A DNA stretch of 51,348 nucleotides, taken from the NCBI GenBank assembly GCA_022826005.1, contig JAJDVT010000136.1, forward strand, positions 1-51,348, read 5' to 3'. The notes beneath the pieces were generated by a model. It was not told the origin of the DNA and did not search any database. It saw only the letters and a program-made list of their open reading frames with translations. The stretch comes from Gemmatimonadota bacterium (lineage in GTDB: Bacteria; Gemmatimonadota; Gemmatimonadetes; Longimicrobiales; Gaopeijiaceae). Shown one piece after another: positions 5,497-31,220 of this stretch (the stretch's first letter is position 1; the number at the start of each line of letters is the position of its first letter). A program made the translations under genes and the position numbers.

Positions 5497-5829
5497 ATGG
5501 CGACAATGAATCAGAAAGTACTATATTGTGTTGCATTCTGTGCATTAGCGTTGGTAGCGTCCGTTGGAGAAACCACGGCGAGTGGTCTGCCCGCAAGCCT
5601 GTCGGCCATGGACGAATGCAGTGATTGGGAGGACTGGGACCACCTGCGGTTCTGGGGACTGTGGACAGACGAGTATCACGTCTCTTCATCGCCGGACTAC
5701 AATCCAGACCAGGAGAGCAGGTGGTGGAGGCCCGTCCGGATAGTGTTCGCAACCGGAGAGAAACACTACCATCCGCTGCCCAAGTATACCTTGGACGCCC
5801 ACCATGAAGCCTGCGGAGGCTGGCTTTGA
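5497..5829 (+). CDS. Small secreted protein coupled to a beta-propeller gene
   Basis: A 110-residue protein of unrecognised family. The ATG at 5497 follows GAAAGGAAG. Residues 1-29 are a signal peptide (MATMNQKV, then a hydrophobic core, cleaved near TTASG). The mature part is aromatic and acidic, with many Trp (DWEDWDHLRFWGLW), several His near the end, and only two cysteines (DECSDW and EACGGWL), which could form one disulfide. Its TGA stop overlaps the TTG start of the propeller gene (TTGA), implying translational coupling and a matched dose of the two exported products. The local GC is lower than in the flanks. Confidence 0.7.
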   Translation: MATMNQKVLYCVAFCALALVASVGETTASGLPASLSAMDECSDWEDWDHLRFWGLWTDEYHVSSSPDYNPDQESRWWRPVRIVFATGEKHYHPLPKYTLDAHHEACGGWL

Positions 5830-6998
5830 GACGCTCGGTTGCGGCGCTCATCGTCTGTACGAGCCTCGCGGTGGCCCAGCCGGCCCATGGCTGTCAGTCC
5901 CCTGCATCGTCCTGCCCACGTGCGCCGGAGCGGTCCTTCGCGGTGGGAGAGGTCACCGGGATTCCGGACCGCACCCCGCCGTGCCACATCGAGTTTCGCG
6001 AGACCGGAATTCGGCTGGAGGCGACGGCCGACGGCAGCAGACCGGACCCCGGCATGACCGTCGTGGTGGATTCCAACGGCCGCTTCTTCACCTCGGACGC
6101 ACCGGGATGGAGGGCGATCATCAGTATCTGGGATGCGCGTGGACGGTATCTCTCCCATTTCGGTGGGGCGGGCGAGGGTCCGGGTGAGTTGAGTGCGCGC
6201 GGAGGGGTGGAGCTGTTCATTGACAGCCGGGACAACCTTCACGCCCGCGATGGTTCGTTCCATTGGTCGGTCTTCACTCCGGAGCAGCAGTTCCTGCGGC
6301 GGGTCAGGTCCAACATGATGGGTGGACTGCCGTGGACGACCGTCATTCTGGACGACGGGTCGGCGCTGGCCAGCGACGGTCTGGTGTCCCAGGAGCACTA
6401 CTTTCGCGTGACCGACTCCACGGGTGCCCTTGCACGCACGTTCGGACCGGTGGGCGACGGTTCGTCAGGGCGCAGGCGGCGGCCCATTTCCCAGGCGGCT
6501 GGCGACACCTTCTGGGCGGGGCCGGGCCAGCTGGGCTCGGATGCCTACGTTGTGGAAGAGTGGGGGATCGACGGAACGTTTCGCCGGGCGTTTCGGCGGG
6601 ACGTTTCGTGGTACCAGTGGGACGGGGCGACCGAGGATGCCCCCCGGGTAACGCAGATCCACATCACGCGGGGCGGCCTTCTCTACGCGGTCGTCTGGCG
6701 TCCCACCGAACGGTACGTGAGGGAGCGAGCGAGAGCGGAGAGAAGGGCCGGGCCCGTCGATTTCGGGGAATTGCAGGCAGAGCAGGAACGGATGGATGAA
6801 TTCACGGAACTCGTCCTCGAGGTGATCGACACCAGGTCCGGCCGGTTGCTTGCTTCGGAGACGTACCGGACATCGGACATGCGCGAGATTCTTCCGTGGG
6901 GTCTGTTCCGCGGCTCGTTCACGGGGTATCGCTACAAGGAAAACGAGGGCGGTCTGCCATTCGTGGAGATCGTGACCCTGGAACTGGTGGCTCGCTGA
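5826..6998 (+). CDS. Secreted 6-bladed beta-propeller protein
   Basis: A 390-residue NHL/6-bladed propeller-like protein. The TTG start overlaps the stop of the small secreted gene. Residues 1-22 form a signal peptide ending PAHGC; a lipid anchor on that Cys is possible but no clear lipobox is seen. Family marks are the VVDSNGRFF strand, HFGGAGEGPGEL near residue 119, and a closing YKENEGGLPFVEIVTLEL. An Arg-rich helical insertion with RERARAERRAGP lies near 300. Proteins of this kind are abundant in Gemmatimonadota and Bacteroidota and are probably exported binding proteins; no enzyme residues are visible. Confidence 0.8.
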   Translation: MRRSVAALIVCTSLAVAQPAHGCQSPASSCPRAPERSFAVGEVTGIPDRTPPCHIEFRETGIRLEATADGSRPDPGMTVVVDSNGRFFTSDAPGWRAIISIWDARGRYLSHFGGAGEGPGELSARGGVELFIDSRDNLHARDGSFHWSVFTPEQQFLRRVRSNMMGGLPWTTVILDDGSALASDGLVSQEHYFRVTDSTGALARTFGPVGDGSSGRRRRPISQAAGDTFWAGPGQLGSDAYVVEEWGIDGTFRRAFRRDVSWYQWDGATEDAPRVTQIHITRGGLLYAVVWRPTERYVRERARAERRAGPVDFGELQAEQERMDEFTELVLEVIDTRSGRLLASETYRTSDMREILPWGLFRGSFTGYRYKENEGGLPFVEIVTLELVAR

Positions 6999-7029
6999 TG
7001 AGGCAGACGGGTTTGGGGAGGGCGGAAGG

Positions 7030-8256
7030 TTGAGAACCGGGGATTCGCGAGCGATTGCTGCGACGGCATGGGGGCTGGTGCTCGTTGCCGGCGCCTGTCG
7101 CGGGGATGATGTGCGGGTGGGACAGGCACCGCTCGGCTGGGGCGGGACGACCGAAGCCAACGAGGTGCGGCTGTGGATGGCCGAGAGCCTTGAGTCGGCG
7201 ACTCGGTGGAGGGTCGCGGATGAGCCCGTCTTCGAGTTGGTGCCCGATTCGGTTCTGTACCGATTCACCGGAATGGGCCAACGATACGCCAGCGAGGCGA
7301 CCTTCCTGCCCGATGGACGATTCGTCGTGCTCTATTCCCTGAGTGAACTGTTGGATCCGGATTCGCTTCTACTGCAGATTCTCGATCCGGTGAGTGGTGA
7401 AGAGACCCGCATACCGGCCCCGCGGGGCGAGCGAGACCAACCCCTGAGTTGGGTACATTTCGGCCTGGCGTTCCACGGCCGGGACATCCTGCTGACGGGA
7501 GACAACCAGCCGCCGCTGAGCCGGCGGCAAGGGCAGGATGTCTGGAGGGCCGATGGACAGGGCCGCTTCATCAGGCCTCCATCGCACACCGGCACTTCGG
7601 GAAGCCTCCTTGGCGTGTTTCCGGACGGATCGCTGGTCCTCGCGGGGCGCTCCGGCTCCACGGATACCACGATAGTCTGGTCGACGATGGCCGTGGAGCC
7701 GTTGGAAGTCGGGGATGATCCTTCGGAATCGGACGGGGGGGACGTGCTGTTCACAACGGCGGTTCTGCGGGATCCCACCATCACGCATGCAGTCTCACCA
7801 ATGCCGTTCGCACATGTGCCTCACAGCACGACGGCGGTGTCGGGCGACACGATCTGGATCGTTCCCACGGAGAAGCCGGAGCTTCTTGCCGTGCACCGGT
7901 CGGGAAGGATCGTCTTGAAGGTCGAGTGGGAGGCGGGGGACCGCTCCATTCCGGAAGGGGTGGCATCCGCCCCGGAGGGTTTGGAGCGGTTTCCCGCCGC
8001 CACCGACCTCGGCGTCGGCGCCGATGGCCTGATCTACCTGGAGAGAGTTGTCGTGCACGAAGGTCGTCCGAGGCGCGGTCTGGAGTGGCTCGTCTTCAGC
8101 CCGGCGGGGGGACTGGTGGCTCGTCTCGATGTTCCGGAGAGACTCGCGTCCATGGCTGTGCTTGCATTCGGCGACGGCGCCCTGGTCGCCAGGGCGCGCG
8201 ACGCGGAGACCGGTCTTCAGGAGGTCCGGGTCTACCGGTTCAGCAAGTCGGATTAG
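7030..8256 (+). CDS. 6-bladed beta-propeller lipoprotein
   Basis: A 408-residue lipoprotein starting at TTG 7030, 31 bases after the previous propeller. The signal peptide ends in the lipobox VAGAC (Cys-23). Propeller strands include YASEATFLPDGRFVVLYS, LLGVFPDGSLVLAGRSG, DTIWIVPTEKPELLAVHRSG and DLGVGADGLIYLERVV, the regular repeat of a six-bladed fold. Unlike its neighbours it lacks a clear GEGPGEF loop, so it belongs to another subgroup. It is probably in the same transcript as the upstream pair. Confidence 0.75.
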   Translation: MRTGDSRAIAATAWGLVLVAGACRGDDVRVGQAPLGWGGTTEANEVRLWMAESLESATRWRVADEPVFELVPDSVLYRFTGMGQRYASEATFLPDGRFVVLYSLSELLDPDSLLLQILDPVSGEETRIPAPRGERDQPLSWVHFGLAFHGRDILLTGDNQPPLSRRQGQDVWRADGQGRFIRPPSHTGTSGSLLGVFPDGSLVLAGRSGSTDTTIVWSTMAVEPLEVGDDPSESDGGDVLFTTAVLRDPTITHAVSPMPFAHVPHSTTAVSGDTIWIVPTEKPELLAVHRSGRIVLKVEWEAGDRSIPEGVASAPEGLERFPAATDLGVGADGLIYLERVVVHEGRPRRGLEWLVFSPAGGLVARLDVPERLASMAVLAFGDGALVARARDAETGLQEVRVYRFSKSD

Positions 8257-10152: not shown

Positions 10153-10851
10153 TTGGACGGCGTGCGACCGATAGCGGAAGGCCGCGTCGAGCAGTGGGCG
10201 GAACGGTACCGCCACGTGATGCTCCGGGTCGCCCTCGGCCTGATGGCGCGCCCGGACGATGCGGAGGACGTTGTACAGCGGGCGCTGGTGGCGGCTGTCG
10301 CCAGGGCACGCCGGAGGCCGCAAGCGGTGATGGCGGTACGACATCCCCGTGCTTGGCTTGCTGCGATCACGCGGAACGTTGCGCTCGACACCCTGCGAAA
10401 ACGGGCGCGTCGCAAGCGGATCCGGCACCGCAATGAGGCAGAGATCCGCGAGCAGCTTGTCTTGGAGCCGGACTTCGGCTGGGACGCGGATCGCCTAAGC
10501 GAGCGGGTATCCGCCGCCGCCGAACGGGTGCTGAGCGCCAAACAGCTTCGGGTCGTTCGGGGCATGCTGGAGGGCAGAACGGACGCTCAGATCTCGCGGG
10601 ACGAAGGGATGGCGAGAGGGTCCGTGCGGAGGCTGCGCAGCGAAGCGATCCGTGTGCTCCGGGGTCATTTTGCCGAGTCGGGGGGGGGGGGGGGCGGGGC
10701 GCCCCCCCCGGTGGACGCTGTGGTCCACGGGTGTGAGGAAGGCGGAAACGGAAGCGGCCGACCCGCATGTGCAGCCCGGGTCGCAACCGGCCCAAGACGC
10801 CCCTCCAGATGGCCAACCGAACGGATCGCGGGTCTCATGACGTCTATGTGA
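10153..10851 (+). CDS. ECF-like RNA polymerase sigma factor
   Basis: A 232-residue ORF from TTG 10153 (an in-frame GTG lies 9 bases on). Region 2 is clear: RYRHVMLRVALGLMARPDDAEDVVQRAL, then HPRAWLAAITRNVALDTLRKRARR. Region 4 follows: AAERVLSAKQLRVVRGMLEG, and the helix-turn-helix DAQISRDEGMARGSVRRLRSEA near residues 145-165. After about residue 175 the frame enters a 15-G run and a Pro/Gly/Arg-rich tail unlike a sigma factor, so the true end is probably near 10680 or the tract has shifted the frame. It follows the amidase by 6 bases. No anti-sigma gene is adjacent. Confidence 0.8.
   Translation: MDGVRPIAEGRVEQWAERYRHVMLRVALGLMARPDDAEDVVQRALVAAVARARRRPQAVMAVRHPRAWLAAITRNVALDTLRKRARRKRIRHRNEAEIREQLVLEPDFGWDADRLSERVSAAAERVLSAKQLRVVRGMLEGRTDAQISRDEGMARGSVRRLRSEAIRVLRGHFAESGGGGGGAPPPVDAVVHGCEEGGNGSGRPACAARVATGPRRPSRWPTERIAGLMTSM
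10680..10709. repeat. Homopolymer run G15 followed by C8
   Basis: Fifteen G at 10680-10694, then C-GGGG-C-G, then eight C at 10702-10709. The run falls just after sigma region 4. Such a tract is prone to slippage and to sequencing error, and it could act as a phase-variation site. Confidence 0.9.
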
Positions 10852-11228: not shown

Positions 11229-11714
11229 ATGACCGTCACGAAATTCTCTATTATTCTGCCGCTCTTGGGTTTGATTCACGCTGCAGTTGCTGACTTTTCG
11301 GGCCCCGACCTCAGTATTGAGTCATCCCCATCATGTGCCTCTAACTCCGTAGAATTCCGTTACAACCAGGTGCCGTTATCCGAGCAGCGCTCGACACCAT
11401 CTCAAACGCAGACCTACCAGGTGACCCTTCTGCGCAGCCCGATGCAAGTTGCTATGCATATGTTGTTGTCTCTTCAGAAACCGAGCCCGTCAATATACTT
11501 CTACGCGGTGCAGTCGTTGCTTGAGTGCCTACTTAAGCATGAGATTTGCGAACGTGTCTGCGCGCGTGCTGCGGCTGACCGAGCCGGCGTCCTCACCCCG
11601 GAACAAGTCGACAGTTATTTCTGGATCTGTGTGTCCCGGTGCCCTTCATGTGTACGGTCATCAGGCGCAGAAGAGGAAGAAGAGGAAGGCAACGGGGAGG
11701 GAAACGGCCCATGA
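11229..11714 (+). CDS. Small secreted Cys-containing protein coupled to a propeller gene
   Basis: A 161-residue protein with no recognised family. The ATG at 11229 (MTVTKFSIILPLLGLIHAAV) starts a signal peptide and has AAGGA upstream. The C-terminal third is Cys-rich: LLECLLKHEICERVCARA, then YFWICVSRCPSCV, followed by a run of Glu and Gly. Its stop overlaps the ATG of the propeller lipoprotein (ATGA). A similar C-terminal pattern (HCPTC and an acidic tail, also overlapping the propeller start) is found upstream of the paralogous propeller at 42190-43356, which argues that the pair is a real unit. Lower GC than the surroundings. Confidence 0.6.
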   Translation: MTVTKFSIILPLLGLIHAAVADFSGPDLSIESSPSCASNSVEFRYNQVPLSEQRSTPSQTQTYQVTLLRSPMQVAMHMLLSLQKPSPSIYFYAVQSLLECLLKHEICERVCARAAADRAGVLTPEQVDSYFWICVSRCPSCVRSSGAEEEEEEGNGEGNGP

Positions 11715-12868
11715 GAGGAACAACCTGCGGAGTCAAGCCCGAGGCCGTGCGGGCCATTTTCCTTTGCCTCTTGGCAGGGTGTTTCGGAGCCTTTCTGGCG
11801 AGCTGCGATTCTCCCGACGTAGAGATTGACGCGGAGACAGAGAACGACGCGGAGGTGTTGACAATTGAACCAGCATTGATTGGTTCAGCCCACGTCCCCT
11901 ACAGTATGACCACCAGTGTTGCCCTTCTTGATGAGCATACGGCCTGCACGATCGATACCTATGAGACAAAGATTGACTGCGTCACCCGGTCAGGCGCGAT
12001 CACTGGACGCTTTGGGTCAACGGGTGAAGGTCCCGGTGAGTTTGTCCGTCCGAGTCGGCTGGTGCGGGGCAGCGGAGGCACTCTTGGTGTGACCGACCCA
12101 GCACGCGGGAGGTTTTTTGCGTTCACGAGAACAGGGGAGTTGGTTGCCGAGGTTTCGTTACCTGTTCCGGCGTTCATCCCGGCGGCCGCGTTTGACACGA
12201 CAATAATCGGTTCGTACATCAGTGGCTATGGTCCGGACCCGACGGCAAGGGGTGGGATGGCGGCTGCCGAGATCCTGCTTGCTACGGGGGAGCTGGTACG
12301 AGAGTGGCGGCCGACACGCGTGCCCCAAGTCCCGGAATGTGGTATGCCGTATTTCGGCTTTCCGGCGGTTGGCGGGTTCTCTGGGGACCAAAGCTGGGTG
12401 TTTATGGCATGCAACGGCCACATTGCGTTTGTAGAGCCGGACGGGGAGACTACCGTGATAGAGGCTCCGACTTATGCTGGCGACCTTCCGGGGGAGAGGG
12501 ATTTGGAGGAGCATCGCAATGTCATTGGCGATTTTCGCCGACGGAATGGCATAACCACAGACCTTAGTGGCAGTATCAGGAGATTCGCTGAGAGGCCAAT
12601 GACATACTTCTTGGGGAGCGGCCAGGAGACGTTTGATAGCCAGGGGCGTCTGTGGATCTCGACCAGGCGGAACCGCAACGAGGCGTCATTTGTTGATATC
12701 TACGCGGGGACTGAGTATGTGGGCACGGTCAAGGTGAGGGATCGTATGATAGACTTTGATGTGTTTGAGGGTACTCTGGCCGTGTTGGTTGAACGTCAGG
12801 CAGGATCTGGTGACGCCGATGGTATCCCGGACCGTGGAATCGATTGGTATGACCTTGATGGGTTCTAG
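11711..12868 (+). CDS. 6-bladed beta-propeller lipoprotein
   Basis: A 385-residue lipoprotein. The ATG at 11711 overlaps the upstream stop. The signal peptide ends at LASC (lipobox). It is a close relative of the protein at 42190-43356 along its full length: both share VPYSxTxSVALxDxxTACTxDTYExK, a GxGPGEF loop, the segment QETxDSQGRLWIST, VRDRMIDFDV and the end IDWYDxxGF. It is probably a periplasmic or outer-membrane binding protein. The gene is markedly poorer in GC than the neighbouring operons, suggesting recent acquisition with its small partners. Confidence 0.8.
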   Translation: MRGTTCGVKPEAVRAIFLCLLAGCFGAFLASCDSPDVEIDAETENDAEVLTIEPALIGSAHVPYSMTTSVALLDEHTACTIDTYETKIDCVTRSGAITGRFGSTGEGPGEFVRPSRLVRGSGGTLGVTDPARGRFFAFTRTGELVAEVSLPVPAFIPAAAFDTTIIGSYISGYGPDPTARGGMAAAEILLATGELVREWRPTRVPQVPECGMPYFGFPAVGGFSGDQSWVFMACNGHIAFVEPDGETTVIEAPTYAGDLPGERDLEEHRNVIGDFRRRNGITTDLSGSIRRFAERPMTYFLGSGQETFDSQGRLWISTRRNRNEASFVDIYAGTEYVGTVKVRDRMIDFDVFEGTLAVLVERQAGSGDADGIPDRGIDWYDLDGF

Positions 12869-13098: not shown

Positions 13099-13119
13099 GC
13101 CGGTCACCCCGCGACCGGC
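13099..13119 (-). terminator. Hairpin overlapping the end of the PKS operon
   Basis: GCCGGTC (13099-13105) pairs with GACCGGC (13113-13119) around a 7-base loop, a perfect GC-rich 7-bp stem at the stop codon of the last operon gene. No T-run follows on the minus strand, so it may act with Rho or only stabilise the 3' end. Confidence 0.4.
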
Positions 13120-14861
13120 AGGTTGACGTTGGCCGGCACGGCCGGTGGAGCCTCCGAACTCAACGCCAGCTGGAAAGCCGCCAGACTCTCGGCGATCCCA
13201 TCTCCGGCAAAGCGGAATTCCTCGGGGATGGTTCGCTGGCGCTCCTTTGCGCGTTGAAGCGCCGCCTTTCTGAGCTCGTCCCACATTTCCGGTTCCGCAT
13301 CAGGCCCCCGCCTGGCTTCATTGAACGACGCCAACTCCGATTTCACGTATTCCTTGAAGCCGCGAATCATGGTCTGCTGACGCGTGAACTTCTCGCAGTG
13401 GTATCCCATGCCGGCCAGACGGATGGCCAGCGGCAGGAGTCGGGGGTGTTCCCTGGATACCCTGGCGATGTAGCGCGAGAACACCGGCAACTGCTCCGGG
13501 GTCAGGCGCCGCCGGATTCCCATGATGGCCGCATAGAGGATGTGCTTGCCAACGGGCTTGTACAGATGCGGTACCGGGTTGAGGTTCTGCAACAGGGTCA
13601 GACAGCGGTCGAAGTAGTTCTCCAGCGTCGAATCGTAGATGGTCCCGATGACCCGGAGGTAGCCTTCCACCAGCGTCTGGGGGTCCATTTGCGGCTTGAA
13701 GTTCAGGGCGGTGTCGTCGATCTCGACCGGTTTGTCCAGCAACCGATTCTCGCGCTCCAGCCGCGTCCACAGGTTTGTTCCCTTGAGTGCGGTCAGCAAG
13801 CCGATCAATGAGATCGGAATCCCGGCCTCCTGGATGAAGTCGATCTGGGCATCGAACGCGTTGTCATCGTCGTCGTCGAGGCCGAGGATGAAGCCGCCCA
13901 GAACCATCATTCCCTTCTGCTGAATCTTGCGCACGGATGTGAACAGGTAGTTGTCGTCGCGCATGTCGAGATTCTGAGGCTTCTTCATCTTCTTGAGAGC
14001 CTTCGGGTTGGGCGTCTCGATGCCCAGGAAGACGGCGTCGAAGCCGGCCTCGATCATGACATCCATCAGGTCGTTCATCCGAACGATATTGACGCTTGCT
14101 TCGGTGAACAGCGAATAGGGATGGCCACGCTCCTTCTGCCATTCCGCAATCACGGGGAGAAGCCTTGAGACTTCGCGCTTGTTGCCGATGAAGTTGTCAT
14201 CGACCAGGAAGAGCGGACCGCGCCAGCCCAGCTCGTACAGGCGATCGAACTCGGCCACCATCTGCTGCGGCGATTTCGTTCTCGACACCCGGCCGTACAG
14301 CTTCGTGATGTCGCAGAACTCGCAGTCGAAGGGACATCCCCGCGAGAACTGCAGACACATCGAGTGATACTCGCTCATGTCGATGAGGTCGAAGCGGGGA
14401 ATCGGAGCCAGGGTCATGTCCGGCTTTCTCGGGGCGCGATAGATGGGTTTGGCCGTGCCGCTTTCCAGGTCGCTCAGGAAGGTCGCGAAGGTCTCCTCGA
14501 CCTCATCGAGGACGAAGTGATCGATCCCCTCGATCTCTTCGTGAAAGGTGGTGGGATGCGGCCCGCCGGCGATGACCGGAACACGCGCGCGGTTGCAGCG
14601 CTCAACGACCTGCTCGAGCGATGGGCGCTGCGGAATCATGGTCGACGTGAAGGCCAGGTCCGCCCACTCCAGGTCGTCGTCCTCGAGCGGGGTCACGTTG
14701 AGGTCGACCACGCGCAGGTTGTACCGGGACGGAAACATCGCGGCGACGGTGAGCAGGCCGAGAGGAGGGAACACCGCCTTGATGCCCTGGAGGTCCAGGG
14801 CGTAGTTGTTGCCCCAGTAGGTGGGAGGCTGCTTCGGGTAGACGAGTAGGGCGTTCGACAT
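13104..14861 (-). CDS. B12-binding-type radical SAM protein (DUF4070-like), last gene of the PKS operon
   Basis: A 585-residue protein (an ATG 12 bases further upstream would add MEQH; the chosen start has GGAG 8 bases before it). The N-terminal cobalamin-type domain is seen in AFPPLGLLTVAAMFP-like spacing (here VFPPLGLLTVAAM) and VPVIAGGPHPT. The radical SAM cluster CPFDCEFCD has its CxxxCxxC cysteines at about residues 176, 180 and 183. FLGIETPNPKALKKM and VLGGFILGLDDDDD are further family segments, and the C-terminal third is DUF4070-like. Related enzymes, including hopanoid methylases, methylate unactivated carbons. It begins just after the reductase/sulfotransferase stop, so it likely modifies the polyketide. 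The substrate is inferred from context only. Confidence 0.85.
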   Translation of the reverse strand: MSNALLVYPKQPPTYWGNNYALDLQGIKAVFPPLGLLTVAAMFPSRYNLRVVDLNVTPLEDDDLEWADLAFTSTMIPQRPSLEQVVERCNRARVPVIAGGPHPTTFHEEIEGIDHFVLDEVEETFATFLSDLESGTAKPIYRAPRKPDMTLAPIPRFDLIDMSEYHSMCLQFSRGCPFDCEFCDITKLYGRVSRTKSPQQMVAEFDRLYELGWRGPLFLVDDNFIGNKREVSRLLPVIAEWQKERGHPYSLFTEASVNIVRMNDLMDVMIEAGFDAVFLGIETPNPKALKKMKKPQNLDMRDDNYLFTSVRKIQQKGMMVLGGFILGLDDDDDNAFDAQIDFIQEAGIPISLIGLLTALKGTNLWTRLERENRLLDKPVEIDDTALNFKPQMDPQTLVEGYLRVIGTIYDSTLENYFDRCLTLLQNLNPVPHLYKPVGKHILYAAIMGIRRRLTPEQLPVFSRYIARVSREHPRLLPLAIRLAGMGYHCEKFTRQQTMIRGFKEYVKSELASFNEARRGPDAEPEMWDELRKAALQRAKERQRTIPEEFRFAGDGIAESLAAFQLALSSEAPPAVPANVNLPVAG

Positions 14862-14876
14862 GTGTTGCTCCATAGG

Positions 14877-17396
14877 TCACAACAGCGACGCTCTGCGGTC
14901 ACTTCCCGACAGGAATTCGCGATACCGCGCGAACGCGGTGTCGATCATTTCGCGTGTCAGCCCGTAGTCCGCAATATCGTACTTGTGCCGCTTCTCGGTG
15001 CGGCGCCGCTCACGCTGTTCATCCAGCCACATCTCCATGGCTTCCACCGCGTCGGGCCGCAGCTCCCACCCACGGCGTTCGTAGATTCGAGCCACCACCG
15101 ACATCGGATCCTGCACCAGGTCGTAGTAGCTGACATCGATCCAGCGGGCCTCAAGTTCGGGGTGCGACTCGCGGAAGTCCACCGCCCGATCGAGCAGACC
15201 GCTCATCGCCCGCAGCTGCTCGGCACCCAGCACATCCGGCGGGCGGGGCTCGCCGACGTCCGCGCGAATCCGTTCCACCAGACTGCACCAGGATCCCATG
15301 AATTGGACCGGTACCCGGTGTGTCTGGATGAACAGGGCATCCGGGTACGCGTCGATCAGCGCCTCGAGCTCCATGAGGTGCGTCGGCATCTTGAACAGCC
15401 ACTGGCCTTCGGCGCCGGAATGGCTCTGCATGCGCTGGTAGGTGTAGTGCTGCATGACCCGGCGGTGGTGGTGGTAGGCCTCGCGAGATCCGCTCGCTTC
15501 GAGCCAGCGTTCGTACTCGGGAACGTAGTAACGGGTGGCGAACATCCAGGCCTTGAACGAAAGGCGGAGGATCGGCATGTCCTCTTCCGGCCCGTCGACG
15601 TCTATGTGGTGGATCCCGGCAAAGGAGTCGATGATGCCCGAGGCTTCGAACACGTCTGCTGCCAACGCACGGCGGGGGTCGTCAGGGGTGCAGGCGAGGC
15701 CCGCATAGTCGCCGTCGGGCAGCACGGGCTCGACATACTCGTACGCCCGAAGCGCCCAGAAGCGGTCGTCCCGGGCCATGAGCCGGTGAAGGTACGTTGT
15801 GCCGGTGCGATTGATGCCCACGATGAAGACCGGCCGGGTGACCTTCAGTCTGTCGATTTCCGAAAACCGCAGCCGCTCGGCGACCAGTTCCGCATTGTTG
15901 CGGAGCATCCGGCACATGTCGAACGCCACATGACCGACCCGGGTGTCCAACAGGCCGGCTTCCGGCGAATTGAGCGCTCTTACAAGCTGCTTCATTGCAT
16001 CGAGCATCCACTCCGGGTAGGTGGCATCGAAGGCCAGACCGCGGTCGTCCGCGTAGCGGCGCGCCTGCCGGAGCAGGTGATCGAGCTTCAGGCGGCGGCG
16101 GGGCTCCGGGTGTGGCCATTCGTCCCGATGTTCCCTGATCCATCGGTTGTAGCGAACGTACCGCGTGAGGGGGCCGGGCCACTCGATCGTGCCCGGAAAG
16201 TCCTCGCGAATCGCGCGGTCACTGATCGGAAGCGACGTCGCCGAGTGGCGGCCCCGCAGCCAATACCGGGCGAAGTGATCGACCAGGGCCCAGTACCCGG
16301 CGAGCGGTGAAGCGTCGCCGCGGGCCTGGCATGCGCTCCTGAAGGCCTTGTAGGACACCTCCGGGTAGTCCAGGCCGAGTTCTTCAATTCGAATGGTACG
16401 ATATGACGGCGTTGGGTTGCAGCAGTTGTAGACCGTGAACCGACGTCTCGGATTCAACGAAATCCCGGTGCAGATGTTGCTCAGCGTGTCGACCGGATCG
16501 TTGTTGGATTGCAGGGTGAAACCGCGGGGAATCATCCCGGCGTCGACCACCGCCGAGAAAAGGCGCTGGGTGATGTTGCTCGGCTGCGTGTACCCGGTCG
16601 ACGCCAGACTGGTCTGCGCCAGGCGGAAGATCGCCACGGGCAGACCGACGGCATTCGCAAAGAGAATCGCCTGTTCGGCCACGAGCTTGCTCCACGGATA
16701 CCCGAGGAGTCCAAGTGGGAACATCCGCTTCATGCCGGCCAGGTCCGGCTGCATCTGATCGTCGATGTGGCTGTTCTCGTACTCGAGCGCAAAAGCGCAG
16801 AAATACTCGGGGAAAATCCCCATCGTCGAAGCGTAGAAGAGGTGCTTGAAGCGGGTGTGCAGGCACAGCTCGAGAACGTTGCGGGTGCTGAAGGAGTTGA
16901 CCCGGCGAATGCCAAGGTAGGAGGCGGAAAGACTCAGAGTGGCTGCGAGGTGATAAACGGCGTCGATTTCTTCGCAAAGAGAACGAAAGCGCGAGTCGGA
17001 CAAACCGAAGCGCGGTTCCGCGATGTCCCCGGCGTGCACTTCGATCCGGGACGCGAAGTCGTCGTCCCAGGTCTCCGCGTGTTGCATGTTCGCCCGCACG
17101 CGCTCGAAGCCCTGCTCCGGTGTGTCGCCCCGCACGATGCAGTGCACAGTCAGGCGAGGGTCGCGTGTGAGGAGGTCGCGCAACAGGAAACGGCCGAGGA
17201 AGCCGGTCGCGCCGGTGACGAGAACGTGGCGGAAGTCGACTGGTGAGACGGCGTCGCCGGGGGTCGCGCGCGTGACTGCGTCGCGCACGAAGCCGCGAAG
17301 TGTGGTGAGATCGCGCTGGCAGTGGGGGGGCAGAGGGCCGGTCAGCGGCGGGACTCGCCCACCGGTGGGGGATTGCAGGGTGGTGACGGAGTTCAA
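14877..17396 (-). CDS. Thioester reductase-sulfotransferase fusion
   Basis: An 839-residue two-domain protein. The TTG start overlaps the PKS stop (TTGA). Residues about 55-330 are a Lys2/NRPS-type thioester reductase (NAD_binding_4): nucleotide loop TGATGFLGRF at 61-70, substrate-side YASTMGIF near 188, catalytic YPWSK at 233-237. Such domains release carrier-bound chains as aldehydes or alcohols using NADPH. Residues about 515-830 are a sulfotransferase: PAPS 5'-phosphosulfate loop INRTGTTYLHRLM at 528-540, and FKMPTHLMELEALIDAYPD followed by FIQTHR near 690, typical of bacterial Sulfotransfer_3 proteins. About 180 residues link the two. The fusion implies reductive release followed by O-sulfation. 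Sulfation of a beta-hydroxyl before elimination, as in alkene-forming synthases, is the main alternative. Confidence 0.85.
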   Translation of the reverse strand: MNSVTTLQSPTGGRVPPLTGPLPPHCQRDLTTLRGFVRDAVTRATPGDAVSPVDFRHVLVTGATGFLGRFLLRDLLTRDPRLTVHCIVRGDTPEQGFERVRANMQHAETWDDDFASRIEVHAGDIAEPRFGLSDSRFRSLCEEIDAVYHLAATLSLSASYLGIRRVNSFSTRNVLELCLHTRFKHLFYASTMGIFPEYFCAFALEYENSHIDDQMQPDLAGMKRMFPLGLLGYPWSKLVAEQAILFANAVGLPVAIFRLAQTSLASTGYTQPSNITQRLFSAVVDAGMIPRGFTLQSNNDPVDTLSNICTGISLNPRRRFTVYNCCNPTPSYRTIRIEELGLDYPEVSYKAFRSACQARGDASPLAGYWALVDHFARYWLRGRHSATSLPISDRAIREDFPGTIEWPGPLTRYVRYNRWIREHRDEWPHPEPRRRLKLDHLLRQARRYADDRGLAFDATYPEWMLDAMKQLVRALNSPEAGLLDTRVGHVAFDMCRMLRNNAELVAERLRFSEIDRLKVTRPVFIVGINRTGTTYLHRLMARDDRFWALRAYEYVEPVLPDGDYAGLACTPDDPRRALAADVFEASGIIDSFAGIHHIDVDGPEEDMPILRLSFKAWMFATRYYVPEYERWLEASGSREAYHHHRRVMQHYTYQRMQSHSGAEGQWLFKMPTHLMELEALIDAYPDALFIQTHRVPVQFMGSWCSLVERIRADVGEPRPPDVLGAEQLRAMSGLLDRAVDFRESHPELEARWIDVSYYDLVQDPMSVVARIYERRGWELRPDAVEAMEMWLDEQRERRRTEKRHKYDIADYGLTREMIDTAFARYREFLSGSDRRASLL

Positions 17397-20300
17397 TGGC
17401 TTGCCGCGGCAGTGGGCCTGGCCCCGTCGGCCGGCGTGTTGCCTCTCTTGCGTTCGCCATAGGCGGCGCGCCCACCATTCGGAAAGTGATCCTCCGGCGC
17501 GTGCGCGAAGGGTGAACGGCGTCTGCGCATGCGCGGACGGATCTCTTCTTCAACCCGCGCGGCTGTATCTGCCCCGCCTGCGGCCTCCTCCTCGGCATAG
17601 CCGTCGGCCCCGTGCACGATTGCCTGCGCCAGGGAGAGCGCCGAAGCGGTAGTCATCAGCTCGAGCGCGCTGACCTGGTGGTTGAACTGCGTCTGAACGA
17701 AGGCTCCGAGCTCGGCAACCGATATCGAGGTGAGTCCGAAGCTGGACAGCGGCTCGGCCACGTCGCCCTCTTCGTGGCCGCACAGCTCGGCGACCTTGGC
17801 CGAGATCTGGGCCACGACACCATCAAGCGTCAGTTCGCCGCCCGCGTCCACCTCGAACGCGGCCTGATTGTTCACCAGCCGGCCGTTGCGCATGTAGTCG
17901 GGCGAATCGACGGTCCAGGGCGGCGTCGCAAACAGCGCAGTGACGAGGTGGTCGTGATCCGCCATGGTGCGCATGGCGAAGTCGAGGTTGGCGATCGCGA
18001 AGTTGGCGCTGACGGTCGTCATTCCGGCGGCCCTCATCATGCGCATGACGTGCAGGCTGCGGGCCGCCATCCCGACCTCGGTCACGGGGCCCAGGTTGTA
18101 CGCGAAACCCGGGAGCCCTCGCTGGCGCCGATACGCGGCCAATCCGTCAAGGAAGGCGCTGGCGCCGCTGTAGTTGATTTGTCCCAGGTTGCCAAACGTC
18201 GACGCGATCGACGAGAACAGCACGAAATAGTCGAGATCGTGCCCGGCGGTGGCGTGATGCAGGTTGAGCGCGCCCTGAGCCTTCGGCGCGAACACGCGCG
18301 CCAGCGAATCGGGCGAGGTTTCGAGGAAGGAGCGGTCCTCCAGCGTGCCGGCGAGGTGAAACACGCCCTTCAGGGGCCTTGTCAGCGCCCCGATGCAGCG
18401 TTGCACGTCCGCCTCGTCGCGCACGTCCCCCGGCACGATGTCGATCTCGTATTCCTGCGTCATCTTGGAGAGCGTGGTGATCTGGCGGATCCATTCGACA
18501 TCACGGCTCCGTTTGGGATCGCGGTCCATTAGAGTCAAGTGCCGCGCCCCGGCAGCGATCAGGTAGGGCACGAAGCGAAGGCCGAATCCTCCCAGGCCGC
18601 CGGTGACCAGGTACGTTGCGCCGGGATCCAGGAAGGGTCGCGTGTCCGCGATGCCGAATCCCCGATCCATGGCGTCCTCCGGCGCCTGCAGGACCAGCTT
18701 GCCCTGGTGCTGGCCCGTGGTCATCAGGCGGAGTGCCCGGGCGTAGTCGCGGTACGGGAAGACCGTCAGCGGCGGCGGCGCGACCGCCTCCTCATCCATC
18801 AGGTCCATGCAGGCCTGGGAGAGCATGTGCGACAGCACCGGGTCGTCGAGCATCAGCCGGTCCACATCGATCGCGGCGAAGCGGAGATTCTTGCGGAAGA
18901 CCCGCATGCTCAGCGAGTTGTCGGTGTAGATATCGACCTTGCCGATTTCGCAGTGCCAGCCGGAGGGGCGCAGCGCCTTCAGGCAGAGCGCGATGTGGTG
19001 GCCGGCGAGCGAGTTCAGAACCACGTCGACGCCTTCGCCGTCCGTGGCCTCCATCAAGTCGTCGTACCAGCTGTGGCTGTGCGAATCGAAGGCCCCCCGC
19101 ACGCCCATCGCCCGCAACTGCTCGCGCTTGCTGTCGTTGCCCGCGGTCGCGTAGATCTCCGCTCCGACGTGCCGGGCCAGCGCGATCGCGGCCTGCCCGA
19201 CACCGCCCATCGCGGAATGGATCAGAACCCGCTGGCCCTCCCGCAGGCGGGCGAGGTGGATCAGCGAGTAGTAGGCGGTTACGCAGACGGACAACGCGGA
19301 TGCGGCCTCTTCCATGCTCACCCGGGACGGTTTGAGGAAGGCCAGGTGCTCGTTCACCACCACCCGGTTGGCGATGCAGCCGCCCACCGTGAGTGCCACC
19401 TCGTCCCCGACCTTCAGGCGCTTCACGTCGGATCCGGCACGCCGCACCACCCCGCTGGCCTCGATGCCGACTTCGCGACCGAGCGCCGAACGCTCATAGG
19501 CCATGGCGGGCAGGAGTCCCAGCGTGACCATGACGTCGCGGAAGTTGAGGGCGGCCGCCGCGACTTCGACCTCCACATCGGACGGGCCCAGAGCGGGCGG
19601 TTCGCAGGTCGTCATCTGGAGACCGCTGACCTGCCCGGGGTTGTCCGGGCGAAGGCGGTACGGGGGATCGGCCCCGTCCGGGACGAGCGGCGCGCGTTGC
19701 CGCACGCTTACGATTCGCGGCACCCAGAGGCGCCGCTCCCTGATCGCCAGTTCGCGCTCCCGCAGGTCGCACCGGGTGATGCCGGCCAGAGTCTCCAGAT
19801 CTTCGTCCGCACCGATGTCCACGAGGTGGAAGTCGATGCGGGTATCTTCGGCGAGGAGTTCCAGGGCAATACTGCGCACCGCCCCCCAGAGCGCGCTGCC
19901 ACGCGGATCGTCAACGCCGCACACCGAGCCGCTTGTGATCACTGTCAAACGGCACTCACCAGTCGCGCTCTCAAGCCGGAACGGGGCCAGGGCCTGCAGA
20001 AAGGCTACAAACCGCCAGACCATCCGCTCGCCGGTGGGATCCTCCGGGTCGGTGCCGACAAAGAGGTCGATCGCCTCGAGTTCGGCGGCGCCCGGCCACT
20101 CCTCCAACCGGGCAAAGTCGCCTGCCTCGAAGGCTGTCCAGGGGACGTGATGTACCATGGACGAATCGAGGTGTTCAATCCAGGCCTCAGCCGGGGTGCC
20201 CGGTTCCCCGACCACCCAGCGTGGGCCCGAAGTCGCGGTTTTTCGCGCGGGCTCGGTCCCGGCCACGGCTTTCCCAGGGTCTAAGGCTTCCCCAACCCCC

Positions 20301-23300
20301 ACGGCTTCCCCAGCGCCCGCGGCTTCAGTCGCATCCCGCAACTCGGCGAGGGTGTCCGGAGCCTGCAGCGTCGTCGTGCGGGAACCTGCATGCAACGTCG
20401 TCCAGCCGCGGGCGGGCTCGATCACATCCCCTTCCTCGTGGCACACAAGAACAAGACCGCCGGCGACCAGGAGGCGATGGACGAGTTTCCACTGCTCGGG
20501 CCCGAAACCGGCGGCTTCCCGATGAAGTAGCAGAAGCTCGGCCGCCGCCGGCCGCAACAGCCCGGAAGCCATGGAAGGCTCGGAGTCCCCGGCGGCCATC
20601 GGATCGAGCGAATCGAATCGAATCGAAGCGTCGTGATGGTTGAAAGCGTCGTAGAGTGCGCGCGTGCACTCTTCATCTTCGCCGAGGAGCCAGTATTCGG
20701 TCTGTGCGTCCGGGCTCGACAGGCGCTCCAGGCACTGGTTCAGGATGGCCTGGCCGGGCTCACGCCGACCCGCGATCTCGACCACGCGGCACGCGTACCG
20801 ATGGCCCAGGGCGCCCTCCTCGAGCGCCGCAATCAGCGCGGCGGGATCGACTTCGCCATCCCGGACCGCGTCCCCGACCGGAGGAGCCGACACCACGAAC
20901 TTGGGCTGCCAGCGGATGAGGTGTTTGCTGTCCGGCACATCGCTCCAGCGGGGATTGCTGTTGAAGGAGTGATACTCACCGATGTGTGCGATCAGGTGTC
21001 CCGTCGCGCGATCGTAGAAGCTGAGGCGGCCGATATAGAGTTCGCCGAGAGGCTTGTTGTACTGCCCCCGTTCATCCACGTCGAACCAGTCACCGGTGTC
21101 GACCAGGAAGCAGCTGATGCGCGGCCCCGTCGGCGGGCGCAGGAAGGTGATGTCGCACGCCCGCTGCGGCATGGAGAAGAAATCCGGCAGGCGCATCAGG
21201 TAGCGCAGGAAGATCTGGAGTCCCCCATCGGTCAACGGGGGGTACAGTAGATAGCCTTCCTCCCGGCCGGAGGCCCACAACTCGTTGTCCACCTCGATAT
21301 CCAGGAGGAGGTCCGTCGAACCGGAATCCATCTCGATCTGCCGGACGCTGCGGAACTCGGGCCCGAACTCGAAGGCATCCCCCACGACCGCTTCGATGTG
21401 GTCGTAGAACTCCTCTCCCGTTGCGAGGGGTTGGGGATCGAAGTCGGAAGCCAGGACGTCGTCGAGCGTCGGGAGGGTGTCGATGGCGTGGTCTTCGTCC
21501 ACCCGGCGGACGCGGCCGCGGCAGTGCAAGGTGCCCTGGTCGTCGTCTTCGAATGAACGGGTGGAGATGGTGAAGGTGAACTGATCGGGAGCATTCGGAA
21601 CCGGAAAGAGGGCCGTTTGCAACCGCACGGGGGTCTTGCCAACGGGTGTATGCTGCAGGAATTCGATCTCGTCGATGTGCACGGGATCGCCGGCGAACGC
21701 CTGCAGGAGCAACTCGATGTACCCGGCAGCCGGAATGATGGGCGCCCGGTGAACCCGATGGTCCGTGAGCCAGGGGAAGTCCCGCTCGGAAAGCCGCGAC
21801 TCGAAGAGAATGTGGTCGCAGGCGACCCTGTGGCCGACCAGCGGCCCGTGCGAGTACTCGCCGCGCTGGACGAACATCTCGTCGTCGACCAGGTCGTCGT
21901 GGGTGGTCGCCCGTTCCTGCGGATGGCCGGGGAGCAGGTGGGCGACGGGTTCCGGGCGCGGGTACTGGGACGCGAAATCAAGCCGGAAGCCAGCGCGGTA
22001 CAGTGCTCCCAGCGCCTCCTGGAAGCCGAGGCACACATCCTCATCCTTCATGAGCGTCGGGATGCAGGCCGGGTTCGAAGCGCCGCCTTCCAGGCATTGC
22101 CGGATGAGCGGTTGCAGGGCACCGTGCGGGGCGATTTCCAGGACGACATCGGGTCGATAATCCTGCTTCACCGTCTCCATCGCGGCTGCGAAGCGAACCC
22201 GCTCCCGGATGTTGGACCACCAGTATGCGGCATCCAGGCGCTGCGTGGCGTTGCCGGTTACCGAGGACACCATGGGGACATCGGCTTCGAAGGCGCTCTC
22301 ATTCAGGAAGGACAGCGAAGCCATGACATCGTCGTGCAGCGGATCCATCGCCGTGGAGTGGAACGCGATGTTCCCGGGGATCAGGCGATTCTGCAGGTCG
22401 CGGCGATCCAGCTCCGCCACGACCGGCCTCAGCGCGGATTCCTTGCCGCAGATCACGGTATTGGCGGGCGAGTTCTCGCAGGCGATTTCAACCTGGGCGG
22501 GCCGGTGGTTTCCGGACTGGCGTGAAACGCCGAGTTCGTCCAGCAAGTCCTCGACGCCCAGGCGGTCGAGGCCGATCGCCAGCATGCGTCCCGAGCCGGC
22601 CACCCGTTGCTGCAGAGTCGCGCGGTGGTAGACGAGATGCGTAGCCTCGGCAAGCGAAAGCGCACCGCACGCGTAGGCGGCCGCCACCTCGCCGGAGCTG
22701 TGTCCGACGACGCAGTCCGGCTGAACGCCCCAGGTCGACAGCAGTTCCACCAGGGCACACTGAATCATGAAGATCGCGGGCTGCGCGAGCCGGACTTCGT
22801 TCAATTCCTCCTGGCTCGCCTTGAAACAGGCGTCGCGCAGGGATACCTCGGAGTGTTTCCGCCACTCCACCTCAACGGCGTCGATCACGCGGCGGAAGAC
22901 GGGATCGGCGTCGTAGAGCGCGCGCCCGCACCCCTCCCACTGCGTTCCCTGCCCCGAGAACACCATGGCCACGCGGCGCTCACCCTCCTCGACGGTGGAC
23001 ACGGGAGACGGGTCCTCAACGAACGCGTCCAGCACCTCGGCGAGCTGGGCGCGGTCTCGCACGGCGAAGGCCGCACGCGCCGCAAACTGGCTGCGGCGCC
23101 GGCCGAGGTTACCCGCCAGCGTGTAGAGGTCGACATCCCGCTCGTCGAGAACCGCCCGCAAGCTCTCCGCGCTCTCTGCAAGCGCGTTCGGGGTCCGCGC
23201 GGACAAGGGGACCATGTATCCGGCGTCCGGGGCCAGCGGCACGGACCACATCCCTGGTTGCTCGGGCCGGTATTCCCTCACCACGCAGTGCCCGTTGGCA

Positions 23301-24577
23301 CCGCCGAACCCGAAGGAATTGATGCCGATCACGACCGGGCGGTCCGGGAAGGGCTCGCAGTCGGTCTGCACCCGCATCGGGCAGCTGTCGAAATCGATCT
23401 CCAGATTCGGTGCCAGGAAATTCCTGGAAATCGGTGCGAAGGTTCGTCGCCGCATCATGATGACGACCTTCAGCAGAGCCGCGCTGAACGCCGCCGCTTC
23501 CAGGTGCCCCACATTGCTCTTCACGCTTGCGACGCGCAGCGGAACATCACGCTCTACGCCCCCGAACGCCTCGGCGATCGCATTCCCCTCGATACGGTCG
23601 CCCACGACGGTGCCGGTCGCGTGCGCTTCGATATAGTCGAAGTCCTCCGGACCCACTCCCGCGCGCTCACACGCCGTGCGCATCAGGTCGACCTGCGAGT
23701 GCCGGGTCGGCGCGGTGATATAGCGCCCCTGCGCCATTCCCGCGGCGTCGTCGGCGGTCCCGGCCGTGTTGACCGCGGTGGCCTCGATCACCGCGAAGAC
23801 GTGGTCGCCGTCCCGCTCGGCCGCCTCCAACGGCTTGATCGCGAAGACGAACGACCCTTCGGCGCGCATGTACCCGTTTGCGTCGGCGTCGAAGGAATGA
23901 CACCTCCCGTCCGGACTGATCACGCCGAGAGCGTTGAACGAGGCGCTGCAGCGGGCCGACCCCAGATAGGTTGCGGCCCCCACCAGGGCCCGGTCACAGT
24001 CGCCCTGCCGCAGCGAGTTGATGGCCGTGTGGAGGGCGGTCAGGGACGCGGAGCAAGCCGTGGAGCACGCGATCGACGGTCCCATGAGGTTGAGATGGTA
24101 GGAGATGCGGTTCGCCAGCATCGAGGCGTCGATGCTCAGTATCGAGAACTCGTTGGTGCCGAACAGCGCCCGCCAGTTGGCCGTCGACGCCACCTGCGCC
24201 CCGATGAAGACTCCCGTGGGACTGTTGCGCAGCGCGTTCAGATCCCACCCGGCGTGCTCGCAGCTCTCCCAGGAGCAGCCGAGAAGCATCCGGATCTGCG
24301 GATCCATGTAGGCCATCTCGTTGCGCGAGACCCCGAAGAGGCTGGGGTCCATCCGCTGCTCTCCCTGGTCGCGTATCAGCCCTTCGTACGCGCTGCCGAA
24401 TCGCCCCGGGCCGGAGAATTCGCCGATCGGCTGGTAACCGCGGCCGTACCGGTCGGTTACCGGTTCCCGGACGATCTCGCGTTCGCTGAGGAGGCGCCAG
24501 AAGTCATCGTCCGTGCGGATTTCCCCAGGCATACGGTAGGCATACCCGACAATGGCGACCGGACCAGGGTGGCTCAT
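17393..24577 (-). CDS. Monomodular highly reducing type I polyketide synthase
   Basis: A 2394-residue synthase; AAGGA precedes the ATG. Domains in order: KS (5-435; TACSAS with Cys-175, EAHATGT His-319, KSNVGH His-358), AT (535-840; GHSSGE Ser-627, IAFH at 737-740, which suggests malonyl-CoA), DH (about 905-1205; His-940, and DGGLQ with Asp-1117), a degenerate methyltransferase-like region (about 1260-1385; VVEIAG without the glycine-rich SAM loop, then GGLVLVCHEE), the KR structural half (1515-1625), ER (1638-1965; SAMGGVGQAA), KR (1985-2165; TGGLGGFG, Ser-2123, Tyr-2136) and ACP (2250-2325; GLTSIS with Ser-2284). A basic 65-residue tail ends it. No thioesterase is present; release is presumably by the reductase encoded next. 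One module with every reducing domain suggests iterative synthesis of a saturated chain. Confidence 0.93.
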   Translation of the reverse strand: MSHPGPVAIVGYAYRMPGEIRTDDDFWRLLSEREIVREPVTDRYGRGYQPIGEFSGPGRFGSAYEGLIRDQGEQRMDPSLFGVSRNEMAYMDPQIRMLLGCSWESCEHAGWDLNALRNSPTGVFIGAQVASTANWRALFGTNEFSILSIDASMLANRISYHLNLMGPSIACSTACSASLTALHTAINSLRQGDCDRALVGAATYLGSARCSASFNALGVISPDGRCHSFDADANGYMRAEGSFVFAIKPLEAAERDGDHVFAVIEATAVNTAGTADDAAGMAQGRYITAPTRHSQVDLMRTACERAGVGPEDFDYIEAHATGTVVGDRIEGNAIAEAFGGVERDVPLRVASVKSNVGHLEAAAFSAALLKVVIMMRRRTFAPISRNFLAPNLEIDFDSCPMRVQTDCEPFPDRPVVIGINSFGFGGANGHCVVREYRPEQPGMWSVPLAPDAGYMVPLSARTPNALAESAESLRAVLDERDVDLYTLAGNLGRRRSQFAARAAFAVRDRAQLAEVLDAFVEDPSPVSTVEEGERRVAMVFSGQGTQWEGCGRALYDADPVFRRVIDAVEVEWRKHSEVSLRDACFKASQEELNEVRLAQPAIFMIQCALVELLSTWGVQPDCVVGHSSGEVAAAYACGALSLAEATHLVYHRATLQQRVAGSGRMLAIGLDRLGVEDLLDELGVSRQSGNHRPAQVEIACENSPANTVICGKESALRPVVAELDRRDLQNRLIPGNIAFHSTAMDPLHDDVMASLSFLNESAFEADVPMVSSVTGNATQRLDAAYWWSNIRERVRFAAAMETVKQDYRPDVVLEIAPHGALQPLIRQCLEGGASNPACIPTLMKDEDVCLGFQEALGALYRAGFRLDFASQYPRPEPVAHLLPGHPQERATTHDDLVDDEMFVQRGEYSHGPLVGHRVACDHILFESRLSERDFPWLTDHRVHRAPIIPAAGYIELLLQAFAGDPVHIDEIEFLQHTPVGKTPVRLQTALFPVPNAPDQFTFTISTRSFEDDDQGTLHCRGRVRRVDEDHAIDTLPTLDDVLASDFDPQPLATGEEFYDHIEAVVGDAFEFGPEFRSVRQIEMDSGSTDLLLDIEVDNELWASGREEGYLLYPPLTDGGLQIFLRYLMRLPDFFSMPQRACDITFLRPPTGPRISCFLVDTGDWFDVDERGQYNKPLGELYIGRLSFYDRATGHLIAHIGEYHSFNSNPRWSDVPDSKHLIRWQPKFVVSAPPVGDAVRDGEVDPAALIAALEEGALGHRYACRVVEIAGRREPGQAILNQCLERLSSPDAQTEYWLLGEDEECTRALYDAFNHHDASIRFDSLDPMAAGDSEPSMASGLLRPAAAELLLLHREAAGFGPEQWKLVHRLLVAGGLVLVCHEEGDVIEPARGWTTLHAGSRTTTLQAPDTLAELRDATEAAGAGEAVGVGEALDPGKAVAGTEPARKTATSGPRWVVGEPGTPAEAWIEHLDSSMVHHVPWTAFEAGDFARLEEWPGAAELEAIDLFVGTDPEDPTGERMVWRFVAFLQALAPFRLESATGECRLTVITSGSVCGVDDPRGSALWGAVRSIALELLAEDTRIDFHLVDIGADEDLETLAGITRCDLRERELAIRERRLWVPRIVSVRQRAPLVPDGADPPYRLRPDNPGQVSGLQMTTCEPPALGPSDVEVEVAAAALNFRDVMVTLGLLPAMAYERSALGREVGIEASGVVRRAGSDVKRLKVGDEVALTVGGCIANRVVVNEHLAFLKPSRVSMEEAASALSVCVTAYYSLIHLARLREGQRVLIHSAMGGVGQAAIALARHVGAEIYATAGNDSKREQLRAMGVRGAFDSHSHSWYDDLMEATDGEGVDVVLNSLAGHHIALCLKALRPSGWHCEIGKVDIYTDNSLSMRVFRKNLRFAAIDVDRLMLDDPVLSHMLSQACMDLMDEEAVAPPPLTVFPYRDYARALRLMTTGQHQGKLVLQAPEDAMDRGFGIADTRPFLDPGATYLVTGGLGGFGLRFVPYLIAAGARHLTLMDRDPKRSRDVEWIRQITTLSKMTQEYEIDIVPGDVRDEADVQRCIGALTRPLKGVFHLAGTLEDRSFLETSPDSLARVFAPKAQGALNLHHATAGHDLDYFVLFSSIASTFGNLGQINYSGASAFLDGLAAYRRQRGLPGFAYNLGPVTEVGMAARSLHVMRMMRAAGMTTVSANFAIANLDFAMRTMADHDHLVTALFATPPWTVDSPDYMRNGRLVNNQAAFEVDAGGELTLDGVVAQISAKVAELCGHEEGDVAEPLSSFGLTSISVAELGAFVQTQFNHQVSALELMTTASALSLAQAIVHGADGYAEEEAAGGADTAARVEEEIRPRMRRRRSPFAHAPEDHFPNGGRAAYGERKRGNTPADGARPTAAASH

Positions 24578-29854: not shown

Positions 29855-31003
29855 ATGGAGCGCCGACCGTTGGCACGGACGGCACCAGGCCTGGCCACCG
29901 CGGCTCTGCTCACGCTGGCGCCGATATCGGGAGCCGCCCAGAAAACAGTAGAGATCGACGATCGGGTCACGTGCCCGGACTGCGTGATCGAAGTCGGGCC
30001 TTCCGTCACTCTGGTTCCTCCGACGGATCACGTCTATTTCATGAGCATTCCGCCCCCTCTTGTCGCGCGTGACCGGGAAGGGAACTACATCGCGACTCGG
30101 GTGCAGGGCGATGCAATGGTGGCAGTATTCGGGCCGGACGGGACGTACAGGTCGTCCTATGGCAGGATCGGAGACGGCCCGGGTGAATTCGCCGGCATTC
30201 CGATGGCGATAGCGATCGGAGAGGGCGACATCCTGCATGTGATCGACCAGCGCAGCCTTCACACGCTGGCCCCGCGCGCCGAGCGCAGGCTGGGTCAACG
30301 CCTTCTGCCTGTCATCCCGAGTACTGCGGTGATTCTGAGGAGCGGAATCGCGATTCAGGCCCCGTTGCGGACGGAGGACGGAATCACGACGGTCCAGATT
30401 CTCCGGCCGGACGGGACGATACAGGCAAATGTCGGAGTCGCCGAGACACCGGACGAGCGATCACGGCAGGGGCCTCTCTGGAATGATACCGACCTGCGGC
30501 GGATCCTGGGGAGATCAACTGATGGCGCCGATGTCTGGATTGCACCCCTCGACCGCTACCGGGTCATCCGCTACGGGCCTGACGGAGAAGAGAAGACTCG
30601 CATCGACCGGGTCTCCGAGTGGTTTCCGCCGCCCGGGACACAGGGGGGGTCATCCGGGGCACGCAGGGATCCGGGGCTGATAAGTATCCATCAGGACGCC
30701 GACGGACTGCTCTGGATCGCGATCTTCCGGCCCCAGCCGTCATCCTCGCCGGCAATCGATGAACGACCGCGTGGGGTCGAGGGACCGCCCATGGATACGT
30801 TCCGTGATTGGAACCAAATCCTCGACGCCACTGTCGAAGTACTCGATCCTGTAAACGGGGAGCTGGTCGCACGACGTGACTTCGACGAGGTAGTCACGTT
30901 TGTCACCACGCCGGGCAACGACGTTTTGATATACTCTCTCCATCCGGACGCGCTCGGCGAGTTCACGTGCGTCATCCGGCCCCTGCGTCTGCGCCGGCCG
31001 TAG
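29855..31003 (+). CDS. Secreted 6-bladed beta-propeller protein
   Basis: A 382-residue protein starting 3 bases after the serine hydrolase stop. The signal peptide ends near SGAAQ; there is no lipobox, so it is probably periplasmic or surface-exposed. The mature N-terminus holds a Cys pair (TCPDCVIEVG). Propeller marks include RDREGNYIATR, YGRIGDGPGEFAGIP near residue 105, VWIAPLDRYRVIRYGPDG, and a late VLIYSLHPDALGEFTC. Its opening resembles the propeller at 5826-6998 (CxxxxGP...), so these two form a subgroup. Confidence 0.78.
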   Translation: MERRPLARTAPGLATAALLTLAPISGAAQKTVEIDDRVTCPDCVIEVGPSVTLVPPTDHVYFMSIPPPLVARDREGNYIATRVQGDAMVAVFGPDGTYRSSYGRIGDGPGEFAGIPMAIAIGEGDILHVIDQRSLHTLAPRAERRLGQRLLPVIPSTAVILRSGIAIQAPLRTEDGITTVQILRPDGTIQANVGVAETPDERSRQGPLWNDTDLRRILGRSTDGADVWIAPLDRYRVIRYGPDGEEKTRIDRVSEWFPPPGTQGGSSGARRDPGLISIHQDADGLLWIAIFRPQPSSSPAIDERPRGVEGPPMDTFRDWNQILDATVEVLDPVNGELVARRDFDEVVTFVTTPGNDVLIYSLHPDALGEFTCVIRPLRLRRP

Positions 31004-31220
31004 CTTGGCGGCGTTGACGGAGTCCTCGGGTCCGGAGGCCCAGCTCGGGTAACGGGGGCGTTGTCGGCTGCGCCCGACAGTCCTTTTGTCCGATACTGAC
31101 TACGAACCGTATTCCAACCGTATTCCAACACTTGCGCACCGGAGCGGGAGACCATACGCATTGCGAATTGGAGGGGACTTGTATGGTAGTGGAATGCTCC
31201 GATTTCGTGGGGAGTAGACA
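31003..31220 (+). promoter_or_regulatory. Gap with tandem ACCGTATTCCA repeat and promoter-like boxes
   Basis: The unit ACCGTATTCCA occurs twice in tandem near 31106-31128. Further down, TTGCGA and TATGGT appear 15 bp apart near 31164-31190, the same hexamer pair as at 5350-5378 but with shorter spacing. GGGGAG seven bases before 31221 is the ribosome binding site of the sigma gene. Confidence 0.3.

Follow-up and report, generated by a model that had tools for sequence, protein, structure and literature searches.

A single frame in a 51,348 nt stretch of Gemmatimonadota DNA (contig JAJDVT010000136.1; hereafter the window) raises the question of what an enzyme accomplishes by carrying a thioester reductase and a PAPS-dependent sulfotransferase on one chain. 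The frame occupies positions 14877..17396 of the minus strand, with a TTG start at 17396 and a stop codon that ends at 14877, and its 839 codons run without interruption. The frame itself, Pfam matches, an alignment of relatives and related structures in the PDB together define an N-terminal thioester reductase (R) domain (approximately residues 20-330) and a C-terminal sulfotransferase (ST) domain (approximately residues 500-839).

Domains of the fused protein and their relatives

Pfam places an NAD_binding_4 thioester reductase domain at residues 60-307 (16476..17219, minus strand; E = 1.8e-48, 165.4 bits versus a cut-off of 20.1) and a Sulfotransfer_3 domain at residues 522-779 (15060..15833, minus strand; E = 1.4e-33, far above the curated cut-off), and both are also seen in a 30-member alignment. 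The NCBIfam thioester-reductase model TIGR01746 matches as well (E = 1.9e-57), with a score of 195.2 bits that is short of its 213.35 bit cut-off. The motifs TGATGFLG (residues 61-68), YPWSK (233-237) and NRTGTTYLH (529-537), which a first-pass annotation had quoted, are all present. The claim made there that an R domain and a PAPS sulfotransferase share one 839-residue frame is confirmed, and the strand, which had not been stated, is the minus strand.

The alignment comprises 30 near-full-length copies, that of the window included, matched across almost their whole length. In all 30 the R domain retains the GxxGxxG loop for NADPH (G62, G65, G68) and the proposed triad T191, Y233 and K237. The ST domain is equally invariant (30 of 30) in the 5′-phosphosulfate loop, R530-T531-G532-T533-T534, and in the 3′-phosphate contacts R694 and S702. 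We take these ST residues to be PAPS contacts from homology and from established knowledge of SULT enzymes. A loss of PAPS binding in the ST half, which had been raised as a reason to abandon the first reading of this gene, is not found as far as sequence allows.

By sequence and fold, the R domain is nearest among solved structures to that of MxaA (4u7w) and to a Streptomyces coelicolor PKS thioreductase (8v1x). The terminal R domain of MxaA and those of CAR and NRPS enzymes share with SwfB (the name is justified below) the fold, the NADPH loop, the triad and reductive release from a carrier protein. In contrast, no sulfotransferase follows R in those enzymes, and SwfB instead would act in trans on an ACP that belongs to a separate protein. 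By the same two measures, the nearest solved relatives of the ST domain are mycobacterial STF1 (2zq5) and STF9 (2z6v), which are likewise of the Sulfotransfer_3 type but are free-standing enzymes without an R domain. When a profile built from nine ST sequences was compared with the PDB at E values up to 1, STF1 and STF9 were the sole matches. Structures of the CurM and Ols sulfotransferases are deposited in the PDB; no olefin-synthase ST was among the matches. An AF2 model of SwfB (mean pLDDT 67, with the ST acceptor region at approximately residues 547-664 mostly below 50) served fold matching alone, its quality being too modest for active-site or domain-domain geometry.

Identity and setting of the gene cluster

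The gene lies within a cluster that has already been described. In 2013, Della Sala et al. reported the swf cluster from the sponge Plakortis simplex (PMC3908369). Fosmid PS11G3 encodes SwfA (2349 aa, KS-AT-DH-ER-KR-ACP), SwfB (839 aa, R followed by ST) and the radical SAM protein SwfC (585 aa), where the swfA and swfB frames share 4 bp and 15 nt separate swfB from swfC (PMC3908369). Published SwfB proteins range from approximately 832 to 839 aa, with R then ST in one chain, and other loci from the same study are fosmid PSA11D7, which is without swfC, and POR_0547-0550 (PMC3908369).

The window presents the same arrangement. Its swfA (17393..24577, minus strand) encodes a 2394 aa mono-modular PKS/FAS with the order KS-AT-DH-(spacer)-ER-KR-ACP, as judged from Pfam and from motifs compared across 21 SwfA proteins; the motifs for all six activities are found, as in one fully reducing module. 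The spacer between DH and ER is possibly an inactive KR-like region. The signatures DPQ[I/V]R, HATGT, FSGQGTQW, QCALVEL, GHSSGE and IAFH all occur in the window SwfA, as in the published cluster, and are largely invariant among the 21 proteins. Near residues 2118-2142 of the KR domain, most copies read YSGAS versus the usual PKS Y-x-x-x-N, such that the catalytic Asn four residues past the catalytic Tyr appears to be replaced by Ser in most copies. The swfA stop (TGA) and the swfB start (TTG) share 4 bp (TTGA). Downstream, swfC (13104..14873, minus strand; 589 aa) encodes a B12-binding radical SAM protein with a DUF4070 domain, as assigned by Pfam, NCBIfam and a CX3CX2C motif (CPFDCEFC) that the published SwfC also carries. 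If the second swfC ATG (14861) is used, the protein is 585 aa long and the 15 nt gap of PS11G3 is matched.

Thus, by lengths (2394, 839 and 589 aa versus 2349, 839 and 585 aa), order, overlap and motifs, all set against the published description, the window gene is swfB of the swf cluster. The gene, the cluster and the hypothesis of release followed by sulfation are already in print, and therefore the locus is ordinary as a discovery. The view that the pairing is without precedent fails: R plus ST is the published architecture of SwfB (PMC3908369). It is correct just in the restricted sense that SwfB is not known to have been characterized enzymatically, and no characterized R-ST enzyme other than SwfB was found in the literature. 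When PS11G3 was expressed heterologously, with E. coli BAP1 as host, no new compound appeared (PMC3908369).

The window copy differs from the published clusters in its Gemmatimonadota genome and in its upstream neighbor genes. Later papers report swf to be widespread in sponges (PMC4245539, PMC9864124, PMC9426513), and in a 2022 sponge metagenome study the phyla with swf-like clusters were Nitrospirota, Latescibacterota and Acidobacteriota (PMC9426513). Gemmatimonadota are absent from that list of hosts, and the occurrence of swf in this phylum appears to be new. Relatives of the window locus carry the titles Gemmatimonadetes or Gemmatimonadota, and bin names among them (RHO1/2/3_bin) suggest that some may be MAGs from the sponge Rhopaloeides odorabile. 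Three records titled as Gammaproteobacteria (L020, L021 and L023) were considered as candidate horizontal copies and rejected. They share contig positions with genomes of the window's own family (G396, G128 and G252), so the titles are probably wrong, and the matter is one of labeling, not transfer.

Around the cluster, several plus-strand frames of approximately 370-440 codons (5826-8256, 11639-12868 and 29855-34244) look by eye like similar, secreted, β-propeller-like proteins, and they sit between sigma-factor-like frames at 10153-10851 and 31221-31712, also recognized by eye. The one such protein that was scanned, 11639-12868, has no Pfam match. Elsewhere, the window genome encodes a CysN-APS kinase fusion that would supply PAPS, and a PF01648 phosphopantetheinyl transferase; both count in favor of the mechanism proposed below.

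Conservation of the fusion and possible exchange among loci

A search of the phylum found swfB in 36 of 395 Gemmatimonadota genomes, representing 4 of 138 genera. Near-full-length R-ST fusions occur in 29 genomes besides that of the window, with 53-95% identity to it, and in none of the 30 aligned proteins is either domain missing or split off. Because these copies come from separately assembled genomes, an assembly error, which the first-pass annotation had entertained, is excluded, and a chance join of the two domains was rejected on the same recurrence and on dN/dS values well below 1. Specifically, against the closest swfB copy dN/dS is 0.17 for R and 0.13 for ST, and against four orthologues of intermediate distance it is approximately 0.14-0.25 for R and 0.12-0.16 for ST. 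Both halves of SwfB are therefore maintained by purifying selection, and the gene has the look of a functional one. A plasmid collection queried with SwfB returned single-domain matches alone, with no record covering 80% of the query. In a scan of contigs, matches were confined to the Gemmatimonadota group, a result to be read with the exact peptide patterns used, which would miss swf from other phyla.

Gene order was compared with 22 other swf loci in the stretches fetched, two of which are the same contigs as searched genomes. In every one, swfA adjoins or lies near swfB, and swfC is mostly present. The order A-B-C is found in the window and most loci, A-C-B in G004 and G108, and C-A-B in G116 and G104. 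In G003, swfC lies approximately 1.7 kb from swfB, and the stretch fetched from G138 contains no swfC match. In G009, where swfA and swfB are intact, the match to SwfC is limited to about 112 residues (L041, approximately 5667-6002) and diverges toward its end; this swfC is possibly truncated or decayed.

The three genes appear not to share one history. Pairwise identities of SwfA track those of the R domain (r = 0.81), and those of R track those of ST (r = 0.90), whereas SwfC identities do not track SwfA or SwfB (r = 0.1-0.2). The SwfA of G016 is 89% identical to that of the window, and its R domain is just 63% identical. In G033, a member of genus g12, SwfA groups with g12 and the R domain groups with genomes of genus g1. 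The simplest reading of these patterns would be gene exchange within swf loci, under which the loci would be mosaic and SwfB alleles would have crossed genus lines in G016 and G033.

Candidate reactions and what they would mean

The presence of DH, ER and KR motifs in SwfA makes a saturated acyl-ACP the simplest expectation. SwfA would work iteratively, and the acyl chain assembled on its C-terminal ACP would be largely saturated; the R domain of SwfB would dock on that ACP, cleave the thioester with NADPH and carry the resulting aldehyde on to the primary alcohol. This would be a four-electron release as in MxaA; alcohol-forming and two-electron, aldehyde-forming R domains are indistinguishable by sequence. 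The ST domain would then move sulfate from PAPS onto the primary alcohol to give an alkyl sulfate, and SwfC, where present, would modify the chain, its most likely role being methylation at an unactivated carbon. We consider that this copy of swf probably operates along these lines, and that a sulfated fatty alcohol would be the most likely product. The first-pass proposal of release followed by sulfation is thereby upheld in part: the conserved R and ST motifs favor it, but it coincides with the published hypothesis and so loses its claim to novelty. Direct channeling of the released alcohol from R to ST, also proposed there, would be a putative further feature of the fusion.

Enzymes like STF1 and STF9 sulfate varied hydroxyls, and the substrate of the SwfB ST is not predictable. 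A second reading is that R stops at the aldehyde or is non-redox, and that ST places its sulfate on a different chain hydroxyl, such as one remaining after KR action or one introduced at a later step, to give a mid-chain sulfate. R domains may indeed be two-electron or non-redox (PMC3908369), and the sponge toxadocials are long-chain compounds that bear an aldehyde and are sulfated at positions along the chain, for which an origin from sulfated aldehydes has been proposed (PMC6780655). However, nothing links swf to the toxadocials, and the invariant triad and NADPH loop make a redox-inactive R domain unlikely. Furthermore, the nearest solved R domain forms an alcohol, and the myxalamid R domain is among those shown by experiment to be four-electron, alcohol-forming enzymes (PMC2835699). 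A mid-chain sulfate is therefore an unlikely product.

CurM and the olefin synthases likewise have an ST working where a PKS chain ends, and the first-pass annotation had named their chemistry as its main alternative. In this scheme ST would sulfate an ACP-bound β-hydroxyl, and loss of the sulfate on decarboxylation would leave a terminal alkene. The ST of CurM acts in this manner, the route has been discussed for SwfB (PMC3908369), and an iterative PKS may skip KR, DH or ER in a given cycle. In contrast to CurM and the olefin synthases, which pair ST with a thioesterase, SwfB has a reductase in that position, and its ST is not detectably of the CurM or Ols kind, as indicated by the nine-sequence profile that retrieved STF1 and STF9. 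Elimination would require a thioesterase as well as a retained β-hydroxyl. Pfam detects no thioesterase in any of the three Swf proteins, which makes the olefin route less likely, and since SwfA keeps its DH and ER motifs a β-hydroxyl is not expected to persist. Elimination is thus disfavored, and we give it little credence. We regard as improbable, too, that R and ST are simply co-expressed on one chain while the target of ST is some other molecule, a lipid or a sterol: the related STF enzymes are free-standing, free ST relatives with 32-34% identity exist in G005, G006 and G020, and the case of SwfC shows independent movement among parts of the cluster, but R and ST are unsplit in every copy and their identities correlate closely.

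The order R then ST has a described parallel in coccidian type I FAS, a fatty-acid-type megasynthase whose C-terminus carries the two domains contiguously (PMC3908369). Unlike swf, that system is a multimodular single chain from a eukaryote.

In 2013, the function of swf was stated to be unknown (PMC3908369), and the locus now suggests a testable product class, the alkyl sulfates. In 2014, its source organism was called unresolved (PMC4245539), and a chromosomal setting within a named phylum is now available from this locus. To this are added 30 SwfB orthologues whose active sites are invariant. The interest of the locus is moderate, with its host phylum apparently an addition to the known hosts of swf. 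More tentatively, SwfB could be the first single-chain enzyme for reductive release and sulfation, and Gemmatimonadota of sponges might make fatty-alcohol sulfates, perhaps methyl-branched. If that were true, some aliphatic sulfates isolated from sponges would be bacterial products.
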